A stretch of 64,000 nt of DNA from Rhodococcoides fascians A25f (lineage in GTDB: Bacteria; Actinomycetota; Actinomycetes; Mycobacteriales; Mycobacteriaceae). Below are positions 25,024 to 35,040 of this stretch, piece after piece. The first letter of the stretch is position 1, and every line of letters begins with the position of its first letter. The notes beneath the pieces are model-generated. The model did not search any database. It saw only the letters and a list, made by a program, of their open reading frames with translations, and was not told where the DNA came from. A program made the position numbers and the translations under genes. The stretch spans positions 682,001 through 746,000 of the forward strand of contig NZ_CP049744.1 of assembly GCF_000760935.2 (NCBI RefSeq), in the 5' to 3' direction.

Positions 25024-26325
25024 ATGTCAACTCAGGTCGAGACGCCCACCGGGGTGTCGCGTGAGCATCGCCGCGCCGCCATGGCCAGCATGGTCGGTAC
25101 CACCGTCGAGTGGTACGACTTCTTCATCTACGCGCAGGCGGCGTCGCTCATCTTCGCCCAACTGTTCTTTGCGCCCATGGGGTCGTCCGGACAGCTGGTC
25201 GCCTACGTCACCATCGGTATCAGCTTCGTCTTCCGTCCTCTCGGGGCCATCGTCGCCGGCTACTTCGGCGACAAGATCGGTCGCAAGAAGGTCCTCATCG
25301 CGACCCTCACCCTGATGGGTGCTGCCACGGTCGGTATGGGACTGCTGCCGACCTACGCGACCATCGGCATCTGGGCTCCGATCATTCTGATCGTGCTGCG
25401 CATTCTGCAGGGGTTCTCCACCGGCGGCGAGTGGGGCGGCGCAGCGCTGATGGCCGTCGAGCACGCCCCGAAGGGCAAGCGTGGAATCTACGGCGCAGCA
25501 ACCCAGATGGGTGTTCCACTCGGCATGCTCATTGCGGTGGGAACGTTGGCACTGTGCACCGGCTTGCTCAGTGAGGAGCAGTTCGAGGCCTGGGGCTGGC
25601 GTATTCCGTTCCTCATCAGCTTCGTGCTGATCCTCGTTGGTTTCTACATTCGACGCCGCGTCGAGGAGACTCCGGTGTTCAAGGAGCTCGCAGAACGCAA
25701 GGAGCGCAACCACACGCCGGTCCGCGCACTGTGGCGCACCAACAAGAAGCAGGTCATGCTGGCCGCGCTGTCGTTCATCGGCACCAACGGAAACGGCTAC
25801 ATCATCGTGGGCGGATTCATCGTGGCGTACTCGACGCGTGAACACGGACTTGCTCGCGTGGATGTGTTGGTGGCCAGCTTGTTCGCAGCCATCGTCTGGG
25901 GAGTGTTCACTCTCCTCGGCGCGCATCTGTCCGATCGCTACGCCCGAACCACCATCATGAATCTCGGCAACGCGGCAATGGTGTTGTGCGCCATTCCTTT
26001 CTTCCTGCTCGTCGACACCGGGGAGTTGCACTGGATCTACGTGGCCCTCGGTCTCTTCGCCGTCGGACTCGGGCTTTCGTACGGCCCGCAGCCGGCTCTG
26101 TACGCCGAGATGTTCCCCGCAGCAGTCAGATTCAGCGGCGCATCCATCGGCTACGCCATCGGCACGGTGCTCGGTGGAGCTTTCGTTCCGACCATCTCTG
26201 AGGCACTGTTCAAGGGAACCGGCACGTCGATGTCGATCTCGATCTACCTGATGATCCTGGCCGCAATCTCCTTCGTGGCGACTTCGCGGATCAAGAACCG
26301 TCGAGACGAGGAGTTGAACGTCTGA
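25024..26325 (+). CDS. MFS permease, metabolite:H+ symporter type (likely phenylacetate or related acid uptake)
   Basis: Predicted 433-residue membrane protein with twelve hydrophobic segments. Family marks are VEWYDFFIYAQAASL in the first helix, FRPLGAIVAGYFGDKIGRKK for the loop 2-3 motif, and LQGFSTGGEWGGAAL in helix 4-5, as in shikimate/alpha-ketoglutarate-type symporters. Its promoter carries the PaaR-type operator, so it is probably part of the phenylacetate regulon and the best candidate importer. A strong hairpin follows its stop. Confidence 0.88.
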   Translation: MSTQVETPTGVSREHRRAAMASMVGTTVEWYDFFIYAQAASLIFAQLFFAPMGSSGQLVAYVTIGISFVFRPLGAIVAGYFGDKIGRKKVLIATLTLMGAATVGMGLLPTYATIGIWAPIILIVLRILQGFSTGGEWGGAALMAVEHAPKGKRGIYGAATQMGVPLGMLIAVGTLALCTGLLSEEQFEAWGWRIPFLISFVLILVGFYIRRRVEETPVFKELAERKERNHTPVRALWRTNKKQVMLAALSFIGTNGNGYIIVGGFIVAYSTREHGLARVDVLVASLFAAIVWGVFTLLGAHLSDRYARTTIMNLGNAAMVLCAIPFFLLVDTGELHWIYVALGLFAVGLGLSYGPQPALYAEMFPAAVRFSGASIGYAIGTVLGGAFVPTISEALFKGTGTSMSISIYLMILAAISFVATSRIKNRRDEELNV

Positions 26326-26801: not shown

Positions 26802-27560
26802 ATGACCACCCCCCTCCTCCCCAGCGCGCCTTCGGCACGCTCCATCGGATCTGCAGGCGGCCCCGGCTACGGGCTCGACTCCGTTCACCGGTCGACGCTG
26901 TGCGCGGAGGGGGCACTGACGTTGACAGCTGCGACGCCGTCGGGTTCGCCCGAACTGTGGTCCCGTTACGTCGCCGGAGCATGGGCGTCGTACTCACGTC
27001 ACGGGGTCACCGCTGCGCTGGACATGGACGAAGTCGCCTCGGGTGCCACGACAACCCTGTTCTACGTCGTGCTCGATCCGACGGGAAAGATGCTCGGTGG
27101 CGTTCGAGCACAGGGGCCGTACGCGATGGTCGAGCAATCCCATGTCCTGACCGAGTGGAAGGATTCGCCTGGACTGGCACCTGTCACCGACCTGCTTCGG
27201 TCTCGGCTTTCCCACGGAATCGTGGAAATGAAAAGCGCGTGGGTCGATGCGGGGGCCGCAGGGCGGACGGTGTCGAATGTCCTGGCTCGAACAGCGTTGC
27301 CGACGCTCGAACTGACCGGCAGCCGGTACCTGTTCGCCAGCGCGGCCGATCATGTCCTGCGCTTGTGGGAGAGCTCCGGTGGGCGGATCGACCACACCAT
27401 CCCTGCCGCGGCGTACCCGACCGAGCAATACCGGACCGTCATGATGTGGTGGGACCGGGACACTCTCGCCCACACCGCACGGCCCGGGGTATGGCAGTCG
27501 ATGGTCGACGAGGCACGCTCACTGTGCGGCAACGATCGGCACGTGCGGTGCGTGGCGTGA
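26802..27560 (+). CDS. LuxI/FeeM-like GNAT acyltransferase
   Basis: Predicted 252-residue protein resembling N-acyl amino acid synthases (FeeM) and acyl-homoserine-lactone synthase-like GNATs. Marks are TLFYVVLDPTGKMLGGVRAQ (88-105), VEMKSAWVD (141-149) and ELTGSRYLFASAADHVLRLW (170-189). No signal peptide or membrane segment is seen. GGAG precedes the ATG at 26802; an ATG 111 bases upstream would run through the promoter motif. Its role would be joining an acyl group to an amino acid or similar amine. Its partner gene is probably the E1-like enzyme on the other strand, which shares its promoter motif. The substrate is unknown. Confidence 0.7.
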   Translation: MTTPLLPSAPSARSIGSAGGPGYGLDSVHRSTLCAEGALTLTAATPSGSPELWSRYVAGAWASYSRHGVTAALDMDEVASGATTTLFYVVLDPTGKMLGGVRAQGPYAMVEQSHVLTEWKDSPGLAPVTDLLRSRLSHGIVEMKSAWVDAGAAGRTVSNVLARTALPTLELTGSRYLFASAADHVLRLWESSGGRIDHTIPAAAYPTEQYRTVMMWWDRDTLAHTARPGVWQSMVDEARSLCGNDRHVRCVA

Positions 27561-27573
27561 CGGATCGCCGCCG

Positions 27574-28734
27574 CTAGCTACATTCGGCGTGCCCGGTCTG
27601 CGTGTCGGCCTGCCATGTGATCGTCAGAGTCCCGGCGTGGCAGGCGCGGTCTCGACCGTCGGTTTTGGCTCGGTAGAGCGCGGCATCGGCGGCGCGCACG
27701 ACGGCGTCGAGCACCTGATCGAGACCGCTCGATTCGCTCGAAGCGACGTCTGCGGTGGGTAACGCCGGGTCACCGGGTGCGATGGGCCGTACGTCGAGCG
27801 TCACCGTTCCGATGCTGACGGTGACCGTGCAGTCGGACCGGATCCGATCGAGTATCTGCTGTGTGAGCTCGTGACCGTCTCGGTGAGAGGCGAGGATCAG
27901 GAACTCTTCGCCACCGGTTCGAGCGACGACCGCGCCGGTGGTGCCGACCACCGCGTGCACTGCACGAGCCAGAGTGTCGGCGACTGCTGCGAGCGTTCGG
28001 TCCCCGGCTGTATGACCGGCGGTGTCGTTGACGGTCTTGAAGTAGTCGACATCGATCACGAGGGCAGACAGCGGGTTCCTTCGCTCGCAGGCCTCGTGCA
28101 CGAGGGCCTGGGCATTCGAGAGCAGTCCACGGCGGTTCACCAGACCGGTCAACGGGTCCGTGTCGGCCAGCCTTTGCAATTTCTCGTTGACCGAGGACAG
28201 GGTTCGGCGCAAGCCGCCGATGAGCGCCACCGGCACCAGCACCGTGGTCGCCGCGGCACCGATCGCAACGGCGGTCACCGCCCACCCGGAGGACCCCACA
28301 CTGACCACCGAGAGCACCGTGGCCATGACCACCGAGGCCGCAGACAGTCCGGCGGTGACCCGAGGCGGTGAACTCGACGCGGCGATGGCGGGAACGATCG
28401 CCAGCATGGAGGTGACCGCGCGTGTTCCGGCAGGATCTGCGATCAGGTAGGCACTGATCGCGACTCCGGTCATGCCTCCGAACCCCAGGACGGCGAATTG
28501 GCGTTCACTCAACCGCCCCACTTTGGCAGCGAAGAGCACGGTGATTGCGGTGAACGTCAGCACCCCGATGAGAACCGGAAGCGCGTTCGGCCGCAAGAAC
28601 GTTGGAGACAACAGGGCAATGGCCAGCAGCGGTACGGCACCGGTGGCGCTGGCAATGACCGCGGTAGTGCGGGTGTCGAGCCGTGACCGCCAGGATTTCG
28701 CGCGTCGACCAGACGACTTGTCGATCACGTTCAT
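27574..28734 (-). CDS. Membrane-bound diguanylate cyclase (GGDEF)
   Basis: Makes cyclic di-GMP from two GTP. Residues 25-175 hold about six membrane segments, then a short coiled linker, then the GGDEF domain (about 190-375). Conserved parts are DPLTGLVNRR (193-202), DVDYFKTVND (228-237) and the active-site GGEEF (274-278). The RxxD product-inhibition site five residues before GGEEF is absent (TTGA instead), so feedback inhibition is unlikely. GAGGA precedes the ATG. It lies 78 bases after the E1-like gene on the same strand. Confidence 0.93.
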   Translation of the reverse strand: MNVIDKSSGRRAKSWRSRLDTRTTAVIASATGAVPLLAIALLSPTFLRPNALPVLIGVLTFTAITVLFAAKVGRLSERQFAVLGFGGMTGVAISAYLIADPAGTRAVTSMLAIVPAIAASSSPPRVTAGLSAASVVMATVLSVVSVGSSGWAVTAVAIGAAATTVLVPVALIGGLRRTLSSVNEKLQRLADTDPLTGLVNRRGLLSNAQALVHEACERRNPLSALVIDVDYFKTVNDTAGHTAGDRTLAAVADTLARAVHAVVGTTGAVVARTGGEEFLILASHRDGHELTQQILDRIRSDCTVTVSIGTVTLDVRPIAPGDPALPTADVASSESSGLDQVLDAVVRAADAALYRAKTDGRDRACHAGTLTITWQADTQTGHAECS

Positions 28735-28812
28735 CGGGTGATTCCTCAGATCAATTTCGGGCGAACCCCATGAACAGTATCTGTCGATGCCTCCGGCCGG
28801 GGTTGCGCCCGT

Positions 28813-29841
28813 TCATGCGTTCGCAGTGTCGGCTGCCGGGTCGAGTCCGATGCGCACCAACGCATCCAGGTCGATTCGCCGCCGACCGGACGAGAGCGGT
28901 TCACCGCGGCCGAATGCTCTCACAGCAGCGGTCACAGCGGCACCACCGAGCGCGACGTCGCCGCCGAGCTGCGGCCAGGTCGAGAGCGTGCGCCCGATTT
29001 CCGGCAACGATGCAGTCATTCGCGGTGTCAGTTTGCTCGGGTCGAGCAGGGTCGCCGCGATTGTGCTCTTTTGTTCGATGGTCATTCCGGCAACATCCGC
29101 GGTATCCATCTCTCCGAGCAGTCCGTGGAACACAGGTCGGTCGGGTTCGAGATCGAAGCGTTCGACATCGAGGACGCCGCCATCGCTGGTCTCCATCACC
29201 ACGGGAATGCCTCGGGCTCGGGCGTGATGGCGGATCAGCAGCTTGGTATCGATCGAGTCGCATTCCTCGACAACGAGATCGAGCCCGTCCAGAAAGCCGT
29301 CGAGCGTCTCTGCCGTCACACCATCCGAGAACACCTGCACCCTCAGGTAAGGGTCGAGTTCAGCGATCCGTCGGGCCGCGACGACCGCCTTGTTCACGCC
29401 CAAGTCGAGCACCGAGGACGGGACTCGGTTGAGATTCGAGAGATCGAGTTCGTCGAAGTCTGCCAGACGCAACTCGCCGCACAGTCCTTCCAACGCAAGG
29501 GTGTGGGCGACGGCGTGGCCGACGCTCAACCCGACAACTCCCACCCGTAGGCCTCTGAGTCGACCTTGTTCCTCGGTGGTGATCTTGTTTCTGTTGCGGT
29601 CCAGTCGTAGCCGATCGAAGTCGCGTGGGCCGAGGACCCGCACCAGGGCGCGCCGCCAGGGGTAGTGCACCCACCGCGGTTCTTCCGCTTCGGTGTCGGC
29701 GACGGTGGGAAGCAGTTGTCGTAGCGAGTGCAGCTGACCGGGTGTCGTGTCGACGACACCGACGGTGGGGTCGTCGAGCAGTCCACGGACGATCGAGTCG
29801 TCTTCGTGCCGGGACGGGTCGAACACCCTGTGCTCTGACAT
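28813..29841 (-). CDS. ThiF/E1-like adenylating enzyme (Rv1355c/MoeY N-terminal type)
   Basis: Predicted 342-residue ATP-dependent adenylyltransferase of the E1/ThiF fold. Marks are LDRNRNKIT (80-88), the nucleotide loop VGVVGLSVGHAVAH (100-113), ADFDELDLSNLNR (127-139) and VEECDSIDTK (191-200). The zinc-binding CxxC pairs of MoeB/ThiF are missing. The layout recalls mycobacterial Rv1355c (annotated MoeY), which has an added nitroreductase domain that is absent here. GGAGG precedes the ATG. Activation of a carboxyl group for a small-molecule conjugate is inferred; a classic molybdopterin role is unlikely because no sulfur-carrier protein is near. Confidence 0.8.
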   Translation of the reverse strand: MSEHRVFDPSRHEDDSIVRGLLDDPTVGVVDTTPGQLHSLRQLLPTVADTEAEEPRWVHYPWRRALVRVLGPRDFDRLRLDRNRNKITTEEQGRLRGLRVGVVGLSVGHAVAHTLALEGLCGELRLADFDELDLSNLNRVPSSVLDLGVNKAVVAARRIAELDPYLRVQVFSDGVTAETLDGFLDGLDLVVEECDSIDTKLLIRHHARARGIPVVMETSDGGVLDVERFDLEPDRPVFHGLLGEMDTADVAGMTIEQKSTIAATLLDPSKLTPRMTASLPEIGRTLSTWPQLGGDVALGGAAVTAAVRAFGRGEPLSSGRRRIDLDALVRIGLDPAADTANA

Positions 29842-29931
29842 TGCTGAGCCTCCGCATCTTTTGGATGATTGTCGGCGATAGCCGGCACCGATCACGCCCC
29901 ACAGCCGGACGCAACGCCGGACTGCTTCACG

Positions 29932-29957
29932 TTACTGAACAATGACGGGCGATTGTT
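29932..29957 (-). promoter_or_regulatory. Shared motif and inverted repeat upstream of the E1-like gene
   Basis: On the minus strand ATTGTTCAGTAA (29943-29932) matches 11 of 12 bases of the motif at 26731. AACAAT (29938-29943) and ATTGTT (29952-29957) form an inverted repeat with an 8-base centre. It lies about 90 bases before the E1-like gene and 146 before the divergent EAL gene. Confidence 0.45.
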
Positions 29958-30103
29958 GCCAAGGATGCACATCGCTTGATAAGAACTAAGCAGAGCCGAC
30001 CAGCCCGCTGTGGCAGAGCCCGCGTACGGACAAAGCCCCGTGTGCCGAGGCACAGGTAACGAATACCTCTGCGTACGTGTAGCGGTGGTATCGAGAACGT
30101 GGG

Positions 30104-31375
30104 GTGAGAGTGGGCGTCGACAGTGGCTTGGATCAGCGTCTCAACTCACTGACCTCAGTTTTTCAGCCAATCGTCGACTTGAGGACCGGTCTGGTCGTTG
30201 CGCACGAGGCACTCACCAGGTGGTCGGCTTTTCCGGACACCTCGCCGGAACAGATCTTCGACGTCGCTCGCACGATGGGGGTGGTCGACGAGCTGGACCG
30301 CAGATGCATATCGTCGGCAGTCACCACAGCGGCACAGTTCACCCCCGCAGACCACCCGCCGCGTACGTTGTTCGTCAACATCGAGGCCGACTCGATGTCC
30401 TCCCAGAACTCCTCGACCTCGGCCCGCCACCTCGGCGAGCTGTTACGTGCAGGCGGCTCGGGAGTTCGGCCCGTCGCGGAATTCGCCGAGCGTTCCCTGC
30501 TCACGGACCCGGCTCGATTGCTCCGATCGGCCGATCAACTGCGGAGCGGCGGCATCGCCATCGCGCTCGACGACGTCGGTGCCGACCCCGACTCGATGGT
30601 GGTTCTACCCCTTCTGTCCCCTGAGGTGATCAAACTCGACCGATCGTTGCTCGACGACAACCTCTCCCCTGACAGGCTCACCACGCTGCTTGCCGTGCTC
30701 GCGTACTCGAGCAGGTTCGATGTGGCACTTATCGCCGAAGGAATCGAAACCGAGCGGCAGAAGGAAAAAGCAATTGCATGGGGTGCCGCGTACGGCCAAG
30801 GATTTCACCTCGGACGGCCCGCCCCGATCGATTCGTCCCCGACGTCGTTGTTCCCCGTGGAACCGCGTTGGTCCGTACCGAGACCTTTGACAGACATTCT
30901 CGACGACCGCAACACCGATACGACGTCCATCACGCTACTCACGTCCATCTCGGACCATCTGCTCGACTTCGCCATGACCGCAAGCGAAACCCTGACGATC
31001 GTCATTGCGTTTCGCGAACCAGAACTGTGCAGCACAGACATGGCGCGCAAACTGCAGCATCTGGCGCACCGGCACCCGTATGTCAAAGCGCTGGACGCAC
31101 CTCGTGCACTGTTCATGGCCGCTGACAGAGTGCGCCACGCCGAACTGGTACAACCTTCGCAAAGAATCGGTGCCATCGCCGTCATCGGCCAACGGTTCTA
31201 CTGCGCCCTGGTCGCACGTCCGGTCGACCCCGACAATTCGGAGTCGCCGTCCAACCAGTGGATGTACTTCTTCACCGTCGATCCAGCTGAGGTCTGCGAC
31301 GTCGCGCGCACGCTGATCGTGCACAGTACGAGCCCCGCTCGTCCCGGGCCCGACCGACCGACGGATCGACCCTGA
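30104..31375 (+). CDS. EAL-domain cyclic di-GMP phosphodiesterase with C-terminal DICT-like domain
   Basis: Hydrolyses cyclic di-GMP. The EAL domain (about 15-245) keeps the key residues: EALTR (35-39), Asn92 in FVNIEAD, Glu in EFAERSLL, LDDVGA (155-160), Lys177 in IKLDR, AEGIE (211-215) and Gln232 in GQGFHLGRP. The remaining part (about 260-400) resembles the DICT sensory domain often found in such proteins. The start is GTG; a second GTG six bases on is equally possible. It is divergent from the E1-like gene. The window thus has both a maker and a breaker of cyclic di-GMP around that gene. Confidence 0.9.
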   Translation: MRVGVDSGLDQRLNSLTSVFQPIVDLRTGLVVAHEALTRWSAFPDTSPEQIFDVARTMGVVDELDRRCISSAVTTAAQFTPADHPPRTLFVNIEADSMSSQNSSTSARHLGELLRAGGSGVRPVAEFAERSLLTDPARLLRSADQLRSGGIAIALDDVGADPDSMVVLPLLSPEVIKLDRSLLDDNLSPDRLTTLLAVLAYSSRFDVALIAEGIETERQKEKAIAWGAAYGQGFHLGRPAPIDSSPTSLFPVEPRWSVPRPLTDILDDRNTDTTSITLLTSISDHLLDFAMTASETLTIVIAFREPELCSTDMARKLQHLAHRHPYVKALDAPRALFMAADRVRHAELVQPSQRIGAIAVIGQRFYCALVARPVDPDNSESPSNQWMYFFTVDPAEVCDVARTLIVHSTSPARPGPDRPTDRP

Positions 31376-31394: not shown

Positions 31395-32762
31395 TCAAGT
31401 GTGGGCGTATAGTGGACGTCCCGACAGCGCCATCATTGCTTCACCGAGAGCCTCGTTCTGCGTGGGGTGAGCATGAACGAAACTACCGACCTCCGACGGC
31501 AATGCTTCCCACGCAACCGCGAGTTGCGCCTCACCGATCAATTCACCGACACGGTCGCCGACGAGGTGGATGCCGACGACCGGACCGTCGTCTCGTGCTC
31601 GAATCACCTTGACTCCGCCGGCGCTGGACAGAATGCGGCTCTTGCCGTTGCCGCCGAGGTCGTAGACCACCGACGTCACGGTTCCGTACTTCTCCTCCGC
31701 GGCCTTCTCTGTGAGACCGACCGACGCCACCTCGGGATGCGAATAGGTAACGCGCGGAACGAGATCACCGTCGATGCGTGCCGGTGCGAGGCCGGCGATG
31801 TGCTCGGCGACGAACATGCCGTGCTGAAAGCCGCGATGAGCCAACTGATACCCCGCCACGATATCGCCGACGGCGTAGACGCCCTCCGCGGTGGTGAGCA
31901 GGTTGTCGTCGACGGGGACGAAGCCACGTTCGGTAGCGATGCCCTGCTCGGCCAGCCCGAGACCGTCGGTACGGGGCCCGCGTCCGACGGACACCAGCAC
32001 GACATCGGCCGAGAGGGTGTCGCCGGATGACAAGATCACCGCGACATCATCGGAAGATTCGGTGACGGTCTCGACCTTGGTCCCGGTACGAATGTCGATG
32101 CCGCGCTTGAGTAATGCCTTGGTCAACTGCTTCGACGACCATTCGTCTTCGCCCGGAACGATGCGATCCAGTGCTTCGACGACGGTGACCCTGGCACCGA
32201 ATGATGCCCAGATACTGGCGAATTCGATACCGATGACCCCGCCGCCGAGTACGACGACAGATTCCGGAACTCGATCGAGCGCCAACGCTCCGTCGCTCGT
32301 GAGGACACGAGGTCCAAGCTCGATGCCCGGGATGGTGCGCGAATACGATCCGGTCGCGAGAACGAGTGAGGCCCCGGTGATGCGTCGACCGTCCACCTCG
32401 ACGGTACGAGGACCGACGACCTGACCACGGCCCGAGACGATCTCGATGCTCGGACGCTTCAACAAACCCTGCAGCCCGCTGTACAGGCCGGCGACCACGC
32501 TGCGCTGATAGTCCAGCGCCGCAGGCATGTCCACACCAGTCAACGATGCGGTAACGCCGACATGAGCAGCCCCGTGCACCGCATCGGCCACCTCGGCCGT
32601 GTGCAGCAGCGCCTTGGTGGGGATGCACCCGCGGTGCAGGCAGGTGCCACCGAGCTTGTCTTCCTCGATCAATGCCACGGACAGGCCGAGCTGTTCGGCG
32701 CGCAGGGCGCAGGAGTACCCACCCGATCCGGCACCGAGGATGAGAACGTCCACGTCACTCAT
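31395..32762 (-). CDS. lpdA: Dihydrolipoyl dehydrogenase (E3 of branched-chain 2-oxoacid dehydrogenase)
   Basis: Reoxidises lipoamide on the E2 core with NAD. The 455-residue protein has FAD-binding LILGAGSGGYSCALRAEQ at the N-terminus, the redox-active Cys pair in GGTCLHRGCIPTKALL, NAD-binding VVLGGGVIGIEFA, and the C-terminal His-Glu pair in HAHPTQNEALGEA. Its ATG overlaps the E2 stop by ATGA. It is the last gene of the four-gene bkd-type operon. Confidence 0.94.
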   Translation of the reverse strand: MSDVDVLILGAGSGGYSCALRAEQLGLSVALIEEDKLGGTCLHRGCIPTKALLHTAEVADAVHGAAHVGVTASLTGVDMPAALDYQRSVVAGLYSGLQGLLKRPSIEIVSGRGQVVGPRTVEVDGRRITGASLVLATGSYSRTIPGIELGPRVLTSDGALALDRVPESVVVLGGGVIGIEFASIWASFGARVTVVEALDRIVPGEDEWSSKQLTKALLKRGIDIRTGTKVETVTESSDDVAVILSSGDTLSADVVLVSVGRGPRTDGLGLAEQGIATERGFVPVDDNLLTTAEGVYAVGDIVAGYQLAHRGFQHGMFVAEHIAGLAPARIDGDLVPRVTYSHPEVASVGLTEKAAEEKYGTVTSVVYDLGGNGKSRILSSAGGVKVIRARDDGPVVGIHLVGDRVGELIGEAQLAVAWEALPSEVGSFVHAHPTQNEALGEAMMALSGRPLYAHT

Positions 32763-34039
32763 CGGACGGATCCCAAAGCCACGACGGGATTTTCGACGAA
32801 ATCGGCAACAGTGCGCAGGAACCCGCCGGCCACTCCGCCGTCGCACACGCGGTGATCGAAGGCCAACGACAGCTGCGCGACCTTGCGGACGGCCAATCGG
32901 CCGTCGACCACCCACGGGCGGTCGATGATGCGTCCGATGCCCAGGATCGCGGCCTCGGGATGGTTGATGATCGCGGCCGAGCCGTCGACCCCGAACACTC
33001 CGTAGTTGTTGAGCGTGAACGTTCCGCCGCTCAGTCGAGCTGCAGGGAGAGAACCGGTCCGTGAGAGTTCGGTCAACTCGGCCAACCGCTCGGACAGTTC
33101 CTTCAGATCGGCCTTGTCGGCCTGCGGCACAACGGGAACCATCAATCCGCGATCGGTCTGTGCGGCAATGCCGAGTCCGACGTTCTCGTAGCGCAGGATC
33201 TCGCCGGCTGCGGTGTCGACCGTGCTGTTGAGCTCGGGGAACTTGGCCAGCGCGATCATCGTCAGCTTTGCCAGCACCGCCAGCAGCGTCACCTTGACTC
33301 CGTCGATGGAGGCATCGAGGTCGCGGCGGGCCTGCAGCAGAGCCGTCGCGTCGACGTCGACCCAGACGGTGGCCTCGGGGATTTCCGCGCGACTGCGAGA
33401 GAGCTTGTCGGCGATGGTCTTACGAATCCCGGTGATCGGGATTCGAGTGACGCCCTCCGGTGAGGAAGCAACGGTCGAACCGGCCATGGCGCGCTCGACG
33501 TCCGCGCGGGTGATCACTCCGTGGCCGCCGGCTGTATCGATAGATGTCAGATCCAGCCCACCCTGCAGTGCCATGCTGCGGACGATGGGGGAGAGCACCT
33601 TCGGTGCTGAGGTGTGCTGCGCAGTGGTGCGGTTAAGTGCCTCAGGGGGCACTTTTTCACGCCACTGCGGCGCAGCCGCACTTCGTCGACGGCGGCCGGT
33701 AGGGCCGTGGCCGGTTCCGTAGCCGATGAGGACGTTGCCCGAACCGGCGCGCTCTTCTTCGCGGTAACGCTCGTGGGCCGCAGGCGTATCGGCGACGGCA
33801 CCGCCGGTGATGCTGATCAGGGGAGCGCCGACGGCAAGTGAGGTGCCCTCGGCCGCATGCAATTCGCCGACGACACCCTCGAACGGGCAGGGCACCTCGA
33901 CGGAGGCTTTCGCGGTCTCCACTTCGACGACAACCTGATCGATGGTGACCGTATCGCCGGGCTTGACCTTCCACTCGACAATCTCGGCCTCGGTCAGTCC
34001 TTCACCGAGATCGGGGAGCAGGAATACCTGCATGCTCAT
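32759..34039 (-). CDS. bkdC: Branched-chain 2-oxoacid dehydrogenase E2 (dihydrolipoyl acyltransferase)
   Basis: Core acyltransferase, 426 residues. The N-terminal lipoyl domain has the lipoylated Lys in VEVETAKASVEVP. A peripheral-subunit-binding domain follows near 155-190 (LSPIVRSMALQGGLDL). The catalytic domain ends with the active-site DHRVCDGGVAGGF. One lipoyl domain only. The ATG at 34039 overlaps the E1beta stop by ATGA. Confidence 0.93.
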   Translation of the reverse strand: MSMQVFLLPDLGEGLTEAEIVEWKVKPGDTVTIDQVVVEVETAKASVEVPCPFEGVVGELHAAEGTSLAVGAPLISITGGAVADTPAAHERYREEERAGSGNVLIGYGTGHGPTGRRRRSAAAPQWREKVPPEALNRTTAQHTSAPKVLSPIVRSMALQGGLDLTSIDTAGGHGVITRADVERAMAGSTVASSPEGVTRIPITGIRKTIADKLSRSRAEIPEATVWVDVDATALLQARRDLDASIDGVKVTLLAVLAKLTMIALAKFPELNSTVDTAAGEILRYENVGLGIAAQTDRGLMVPVVPQADKADLKELSERLAELTELSRTGSLPAARLSGGTFTLNNYGVFGVDGSAAIINHPEAAILGIGRIIDRPWVVDGRLAVRKVAQLSLAFDHRVCDGGVAGGFLRTVADFVENPVVALGSVR

Positions 34040-35040
34040 ACCGTGACCGCCTTGCTGAGGTCGGGAGCGTCGTTCCACTGCAGACGGTCCATAGCGTCGA
34101 GAACGCGGTCCGCGGACGGCAGGTGGAAGTGCTCGAGTTTCGGTGCAGGATAGGGAATGTCGAGTCCGGTCACCCGCAGTACCGGAGCGTGCAGGTGATG
34201 GAAGCAGCGCTCGGATACGCGTGAGGCGATCTCCGCTGCGACGCCGGCGAAGCCCTGCGCCTCCTGAATCACGATGCAGCGACCGGTCTTACGTACCGAG
34301 GCCGCGACGGTCACGTCGTCGAACGGATTGAGCGAACGTAGGTCGATCACCTCGACGCTCCGGCCGTCCTCGGCCGCGAACTCGGCTGCCTGCATGGCAA
34401 CCGACACGGTGGGGCCGTACGCGAGCAGAGTGACGTCGGTACCGGCACGACGCACGACGGCGGTGCCGATCGGCTCGGTCTTGGCCAGCTCGATGTCGTC
34501 CTTGGAGAAGTACAACCGCTTCGGTTCGAGGAAGATCACCGGATCGGGATCTGCGATGGCGTCACGCATCAGCGAATACGCGTCGGCGACGGTGGACGGG
34601 GAGACGACCTTCAAACCTGGGGTGTGGGCGTAGTAGGCCTCGGACGAGTCGCAGTGGTGCTCGACGCCGCCGATACCACCGGCGAACGGAATCCGAATGA
34701 CCATCGGCGCGGTGAGCGATCCACGAGTTCTGTTGCGCAGCTTGGCAACGTGAGACACGATCTGCTCGAAGGCCGGGTAGGCGAAGGCGTCGAACTGCAT
34801 CTCGACGACGGGCTTGTAGCCCGACATGGCCATTCCGATCGCGAATCCCACGATGCCCGACTCCGCGAGCGGGGTGTCGAAGCAGCGATCGTCACCGAAG
34901 TCTCGGGTCAGTCCGTCGGTGACGCGAAAGACGCCGCCGAGCGTGCCGACGTCCTCGCCGAACACAACGACCTTGTCGTCCTCGGTCAACGCGTCGCGCA
35001 GGGCGGCGTTGAGGGCTCCGGCCATGGTCATCGTGGTCAT
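34036..35040 (-). CDS. bkdB: Branched-chain 2-oxoacid dehydrogenase E1 beta subunit
   Basis: Beta chain of the thiamine-diphosphate E1 decarboxylase, 334 residues. Family marks are VFGEDVGTLGGVFRVTDGL, TPLAESGIVGFAIGMAM and FEQIVSHVAK. It binds the thiamine ring side of the cofactor with the alpha chain. It overlaps both neighbours by ATGA, so subunit balance is set by coupled translation. Confidence 0.94.
   Translation of the reverse strand: MTTMTMAGALNAALRDALTEDDKVVVFGEDVGTLGGVFRVTDGLTRDFGDDRCFDTPLAESGIVGFAIGMAMSGYKPVVEMQFDAFAYPAFEQIVSHVAKLRNRTRGSLTAPMVIRIPFAGGIGGVEHHCDSSEAYYAHTPGLKVVSPSTVADAYSLMRDAIADPDPVIFLEPKRLYFSKDDIELAKTEPIGTAVVRRAGTDVTLLAYGPTVSVAMQAAEFAAEDGRSVEVIDLRSLNPFDDVTVAASVRKTGRCIVIQEAQGFAGVAAEIASRVSERCFHHLHAPVLRVTGLDIPYPAPKLEHFHLPSADRVLDAMDRLQWNDAPDLSKAVTV

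Follow-up and report, generated by a model that had tools for sequence, protein, structure and literature searches.

In the 2025 work on Rv1356c (TrzA) and Rv1355c (TrzS), cited here from the available parts of PMC12856293, N-acyl tryptazolones are described as the product of the two enzymes. TrzA acylates L-tryptophan in an acyl-CoA-dependent reaction, and TrzS carries out an ATP-dependent cyclisation of the acyl tryptophan, followed by desaturation to N-acyl tryptazolone; the cyclised, non-desaturated intermediate accumulates at limiting O2 or in a variant of the flavin half. Those parts also note, in one species, that the cyclic dimeric guanosine monophosphate (c-di-GMP) genes rv1354c and rv1357c are adjacent to the trz genes, and they name the physiological role of the oxazolones as a major unresolved question. 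In the tyz pathway, as described in the available parts of PMC10404671, the cyclase and the desaturase are separate proteins, and FeeM was a top fold match of the modelled TyzA. Here, we describe a four-gene island at positions 26802-31375 of a 64,000-nt stretch of Rhodococcoides fascians A25f (contig NZ_CP049744.1, 682,001-746,000; hereafter, the window), which encodes a TrzA-like acyltransferase, a ThiF-type protein, a GGDEF protein, and an EAL protein.

The locus looks like a shortened variant of the published oxazolone pathway, and its kind of system is already known. A sequence-only reading of the window had singled out the island as an undescribed system, a view that does not stand, as full-length relatives form the TrzA/TrzS pathway presented in the available parts of PMC12856293. 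Within this framework, the island is probably a second, desaturase-free trz N-acyl oxazolone pathway equipped with a diguanylate cyclase of its own.

The ThiF-type protein and the acyltransferase

The window ThiF protein scored 85.5 bits against Pfam ThiF (above the cut-off) and 510 bits against the NCBIfam model NF005901, ‘Rv1355c family’ (cut-off, 476). The latter match covers profile positions 13-348 of 722 and stops there, indicating that the nitroreductase half has truly been lost, in line with the earlier description of the protein as the front part of Rv1355c without its nitroreductase domain. Because this flavin oxidase (nitroreductase-type) half is missing, the protein was not filed as TrzS, and no oxidase gene was found near the ThiF gene in the window stretch. 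An alternative GTG start is open at 29895. D195 sits in an EECD motif, and this Asp is presumably the counterpart of TrzS Asp217. It and the other ThiF adenylation residues are kept in all 18 short proteins of the genus that were included in the ThiF tree, as are 61 of the 64 columns for which conservation among 96 full ThiF-oxidase proteins reaches 95% or more. The ratio of non-synonymous to synonymous substitution rates (dN/dS) of the short ThiF gene was 0.11-0.17 in three comparisons, and the short cyclase is under purifying selection.

The genome containing the window also carries a full trz-like cluster (G000:C1:5315917-5320586), in which an acyltransferase gene and a ThiF-oxidase gene are followed by a gene for a GAF-GGDEF-EAL protein. 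The window ThiF protein and acyltransferase are 59 and 44% identical to the ThiF half and the acyltransferase of this cluster, respectively. When ThiF presence was defined as an NF005901 match of at least 200 bits, 115 of 251 genomes of the family contained both an acyltransferase relative and ThiF, 5 contained ThiF alone, none contained the acyltransferase alone, and 131 contained neither; acyltransferase relatives were present in all 37 genomes of the genus. In the window, the acyltransferase gene lies next to the ThiF gene, as expected for the trzAS pathway. The Rv1355c-family score, the identity between the ThiF proteins, and the co-occurrence of acyltransferase and ThiF support placing the locus among the trz-type pathways.

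By analogy with TrzA, the acyltransferase would use acyl-CoA to acylate an amino acid that is probably aromatic. Judging from TrzS and the kept residues, the ThiF-like enzyme would adenylate the carboxylate with ATP and form a 5(4H)-oxazolone by ring closure. Without a flavin oxidase half, the ring would stay saturated, and the resulting azlactone, which is reactive, may be the final product or undergo further reaction. The sequence-only reading had proposed an acyl-amine step and an adenylated acid leading to a small signal or conjugate; it was right as to these two steps and a small product, which is predicted to be lipidic.

The acyltransferase as a whole protein matched no Pfam family. Its core gave one Pfam match, which was taken as chance, and a PDB sequence search with its profile returned beta-lactamase matches at E values of at least 0.41 alone, also taken as chance. 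Comparison of the profile with six FeeM-family proteins gave an E value of 0.065 for one pair and a probability of 0.85 percent, which is not significant; four control profiles gave 0.07-0.2 percent, below this figure. The label of a LuxI/FeeM-like GNAT, which had been given to the protein earlier, therefore finds no support at the sequence level.

Adenylation of protein C-termini is the established activity of ThiF, MoeB, and E1 enzymes, and the window ThiF protein might adenylate something other than an acyl amino acid (another small acid, or a small protein or peptide at its C-terminus), with the acyltransferase acting apart. The absence of several TrzS residues from the fused ThiF domains described below is consistent with such a role. 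However, the window protein scored above the cut-off of the Rv1355c family, whereas the best MoeB/ThiF equivalogs scored far under their own cut-offs. Moreover, C121 and C194 are its only cysteines, so that zinc CxxC pairs are absent, as the sequence-only reading had recognized, and the acyltransferase was always accompanied by ThiF in the 115 genomes. A different ThiF substrate is thus quite improbable. MoeB-/ThiF-type protein activation in particular is disfavoured on the basis of the family score, the weak equivalog scores, and the absence of zinc Cys pairs.

Table 1. Genes of the island, with positions in the window
Feature	Position	Strand	Basis
TrzA-like acyltransferase, predicted to be an N-acyl amino acid synthase	26802..27560	+	Relatives in 115 of 251 family genomes and 37 of 37 genus genomes; no Pfam family
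Predicted membrane diguanylate cyclase, N-terminal hydrophobic region and GGDEF domain	27574..28734	-	PF00990 97.7 bits, motifs, hydropathy
ThiF/E1-like adenylating cyclase, resembling the front half of TrzS/Rv1355c, without flavin oxidase half	28813..29841	-	NF005901, conserved columns
EAL phosphodiesterase with an unassigned C-terminal region; accessory	30104..31375	+	PF00563 132.9 bits (above cut-off), distribution

The coordinates in Table 1 place the four genes where the sequence-only reading had located the island, and the GGDEF, ThiF, and EAL domains all scored above their Pfam cut-offs.

The short form across the genus

In total, 136 acyltransferase places were identified, and 132 of them (including the window; 113 genomes) were classified with profiles built in this study; three fragments (two in G013 and one in G207) and one weak place under the threshold were left out. 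A full ThiF-oxidase is encoded at 96 of the 132 places, and ThiF for which no oxidase was found at 25 (L138, L153, and L182 among these are truncated by contig ends); at the remaining 11, the stretch contains no ThiF. None of the complete short loci has an oxidase in its stretch. Six named loci, all from Rhodococcus sp., combine an acyltransferase, a GGDEF protein, and a short ThiF protein without an oxidase, and two of these also contain an EAL gene.

Among the 37 genomes of the genus, the short and full ThiF forms are each present in 28: 19 genomes contain both, 9 the short form alone, and 9 the full form alone. All 28 genomes with the short form encode an acyltransferase nearer to that of the window than those of the full clusters are (judged by identity alone for genomes outside the tree). 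The 18 short ThiF proteins of the genus included in the ThiF tree form one clade (Shimodaira-Hasegawa-like approximate likelihood-ratio test, SH-aLRT, 98), and the short state requires at least four changes over the whole tree. One genome (G201) contains two window-type loci, L067 and L068, on two contigs. The absence of an oxidase from the short loci and the lack of a TrzS-type desaturase in 9 of the 37 genomes suggest that the ring stays saturated.

Several observations weigh against the proposed desaturase-free pathway. Nineteen of the 28 short-form genomes, including that of the window, also encode a full TrzS, which could desaturate in trans; the short locus would then contribute to ordinary desaturated oxazolones with another choice of acyl group or amino acid. 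The tyz pathway indeed runs with a separate cyclase and desaturase (available parts of PMC10404671). In addition, distant nitroreductase-family matches (about 64-74 bits, under the cut-off) were found in at least four (G056, G252, G258, and G262) of the nine genomes that have the short form alone. In six genomes, the acyltransferase gene stands alone elsewhere, unlinked to the ThiF gene, which still lies beside a GGDEF gene, and at L092 (G036) the ThiF protein belongs to the window clade and the acyltransferase to another, so that the two trees disagree. On the other hand, desaturation in trans does not readily account for the nine short-form genomes in which the short form occurs alone: a TrzS oxidase query yielded no match at E <= 0.001 for six of them and, for the other three, weak matches with E values of 4e-7 to 5e-4. 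Desaturation by a TrzS encoded elsewhere is therefore considered unlikely, and a pathway ending in a saturated ring is preferred.

Linkage of the ThiF gene to c-di-GMP genes

The window GGDEF protein contains some five hydrophobic segments within its N-terminal 175 aa (by hydropathy), an intact GGEEF motif, and no RxxD within the nine residues before it, confirming the earlier statements that the key GGDEF residues are kept and that the RxxD site is lacking. It thus carries the GG(D/E)EF signature of a diguanylate cyclase, and this activity is predicted. The 121 loci with an acyltransferase and ThiF represent 15 genera; 118 of them have a GGDEF gene within 6 kb, and the other three are truncated by contig ends. 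About 4.8 of 121 loci would be expected by chance (uniform placement, with 32 GGDEF genes assumed for genomes with a count of at least 14). Eighteen of 19 genomes with a single GGDEF gene have it at the acyltransferase-ThiF locus, and the locus of the nineteenth is contig-cut. The GG(D/E)EF motif is intact in 116 of the 118 loci, and RxxD is present in 3.

The 121 loci show two main layouts. In the first (71 loci), a ThiF-oxidase is accompanied by a GGDEF-EAL protein, and the acyltransferase and ThiF genes are on the same strand; in the second (35 loci; 22 full and 13 short), there is a GGDEF-only protein, and the acyltransferase gene is on the other strand. The remainder consists of 3 fused loci, 9 of other kinds, and 3 that are cut. 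The GGDEF domains of the two main layouts fall, with few exceptions, into separate clades, but because the tree contains no unrelated GGDEF domains, this split does not establish separate recruitment. Four full trz-like clusters (L119, L120, L121, and L122) contain two tandem GGDEF-EAL genes.

In the window, the ThiF and GGDEF genes share a strand, with ThiF upstream and a gap of 78 bp between the two. Short ThiF is found beside GGDEF in all 18 genus loci included in the tree; the two frames are 10-87 bp apart or overlap in 12 of these loci, and the acyltransferase gene lies between them in six. Three genomes of a sister genus (g8) encode GGDEF and ThiF as a single open reading frame of 771-775 aa. 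A query with one of these fusion proteins against 59 genomes of the sister genus gave near full-length matches in five, of which those in G228, G236, G211, and G270 are stop-free and that in G281 contains an in-frame stop; in G104, G284, G285, and G271, GGDEF and ThiF are separate neighbours. Analysis of three stretches with the fusion revealed no oxidase. The fused ThiF domains scored 241-252 bits against the Rv1355c model, under the cut-off, and do not keep several TrzS-like columns; their substrate may therefore differ.

Shared ancestry could in principle have kept the GGDEF gene in place as a bystander with no functional tie to the cyclase, since related genomes do not count as independent cases and, within each layout, the GGDEF domains are also related to one another. 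Furthermore, of the 11 acyltransferases whose stretch contains no ThiF, 9 have no GGDEF or EAL gene within 6 kb, indicating that the c-di-GMP link does not extend to the acyltransferase as such but follows ThiF. However, proximity has been kept although gene order and strand vary between layouts, whereas the four genes flanking the window locus, used as a control, have relatives in just 1 to 7 of 141 stretches. ThiF also still adjoins GGDEF in the six genomes with the acyltransferase elsewhere, and the two are fused in the sister genus. A bystander role is accordingly very improbable. The ThiF and GGDEF genes are linked, in keeping with the c-di-GMP connection drawn in the sequence-only reading, and the oxazolone pathway may be coupled to c-di-GMP. 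The frequency of GGDEF genes at the loci overall, their presence at every short locus in the tree, and the fusion together argue that the pathway in the window has its own diguanylate cyclase.

The GGDEF enzyme, encoded in one gene block with the ThiF-like cyclase, would make c-di-GMP, and either could control the other. ThiF-type proteins and GGDEF domains both function as dimers, and it may thus be guessed that a fused or partnered ThiF serves as an input to the diguanylate cyclase. It is possible, and suggested here tentatively, that oxazolone synthesis and c-di-GMP signalling form one functional unit across this actinobacterial family, in which the ThiF cyclase and its GGDEF partner act together, and that in the window lineage the pathway, lacking any desaturase, ends in a saturated, reactive acyl-azlactone that acts as, or controls, the input signal of the diguanylate cyclase.

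The EAL gene shows a different distribution. In the window EAL protein, EAL, DDV, IKLDR, and AEGIET were located by string and the other EAL residues were judged by eye, in agreement with the earlier statement that they are kept. The C-terminal region (window 30824-31372) matched no Pfam family at E <= 10, and there was thus no DICT match to justify the DICT label that had been attached to it. Among the 28 genus genomes with short ThiF, an EAL orthologue lies beside short ThiF in four (G000, G140, G263, and G257, the last contig-cut); in a fifth, G256, it is split into two frames 2.2 kb from short ThiF (G256:C4:91271-92328). A similar split copy lies on another contig (G201:C23:123153-124210), and the orthologue is perhaps a decayed gene in both genomes. 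A more distant EAL gene (36% identity) is located near the G265 locus. The EAL gene is an occasional, accessory neighbour that is not conserved at the short-ThiF type of locus. The neighbourhood comparison called for by the sequence-only reading therefore bears out a recurrent acyltransferase, ThiF, and GGDEF group, but not the bracket of a c-di-GMP ‘maker and breaker’ as a conserved feature of this locus type.

Neighbouring genes and comparison with known systems

A transporter-like gene (window 25024-26325, + strand; label by eye) adjoins the island and has relatives in six stretches (L106-L111) in which short ThiF and GGDEF are apart from the acyltransferase; it is perhaps a trace of an older arrangement. 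The island is also adjoined by E3- and E2-like 2-oxoacid dehydrogenase genes (window 31395-34078, - strand; labels by eye). These could supply short acyl-CoA; as the acyl-CoA source of the pathway, they were considered and set aside, because both were found only in the window and L065, with each alone in one further stretch.

The adjacency noted in one species (available parts of PMC12856293) thus extends to nearly all of the loci in 15 genera, outlasting rearrangement and becoming a fusion. The linkage of GGDEF to oxazolone genes makes the role of the oxazolones directly testable, and the maintenance of the cyclase by selection in genomes that have no TrzS-type desaturase leads to the prediction that a saturated oxazolone occurs as a natural product. 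A literature search, with most subscription journals outside its coverage, found no publication among the papers listed on a desaturase-free trz locus or a GGDEF-ThiF fusion. The ThiF nodes of the network in PMC12856293 mostly have, according to its available parts, an oxidase gene and/or an acyltransferase gene as a neighbour, and oxidase-free loci may therefore be among its data; no discussion of such loci was found in those parts.

Of the known systems, the FeeM N-acyl amino acid synthase (PF21926) shares the predicted reaction type of the window acyltransferase, with no significant sequence or profile match. OxzA/OxzB of Pseudoalteromonas rubra, compared by their description in the available parts of PMC12856293 and PMC10404671, likewise pair an acyltransferase with a ThiF-containing protein, but OxzB is a ThiF-oxidase fusion, unlike the window ThiF protein. 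TyzA/TyzB/TyzC, which make N-acyl tyrazolone and were also compared by description (available parts of PMC10404671), resemble the window locus in having no oxidase fused to the cyclase and the acyltransferase gene on the opposite strand; they differ in a separate desaturase gene, TyzC, which has no counterpart at the window locus. Compared with TrzA/TrzS (available parts of PMC12856293), the window locus is without the flavin oxidase half, encodes a GGDEF-only membrane protein instead of a GGDEF-EAL protein, and has an opposite-strand layout, whereas both systems combine an acyltransferase with an Rv1355c-family ThiF cyclase and have c-di-GMP genes adjacent.

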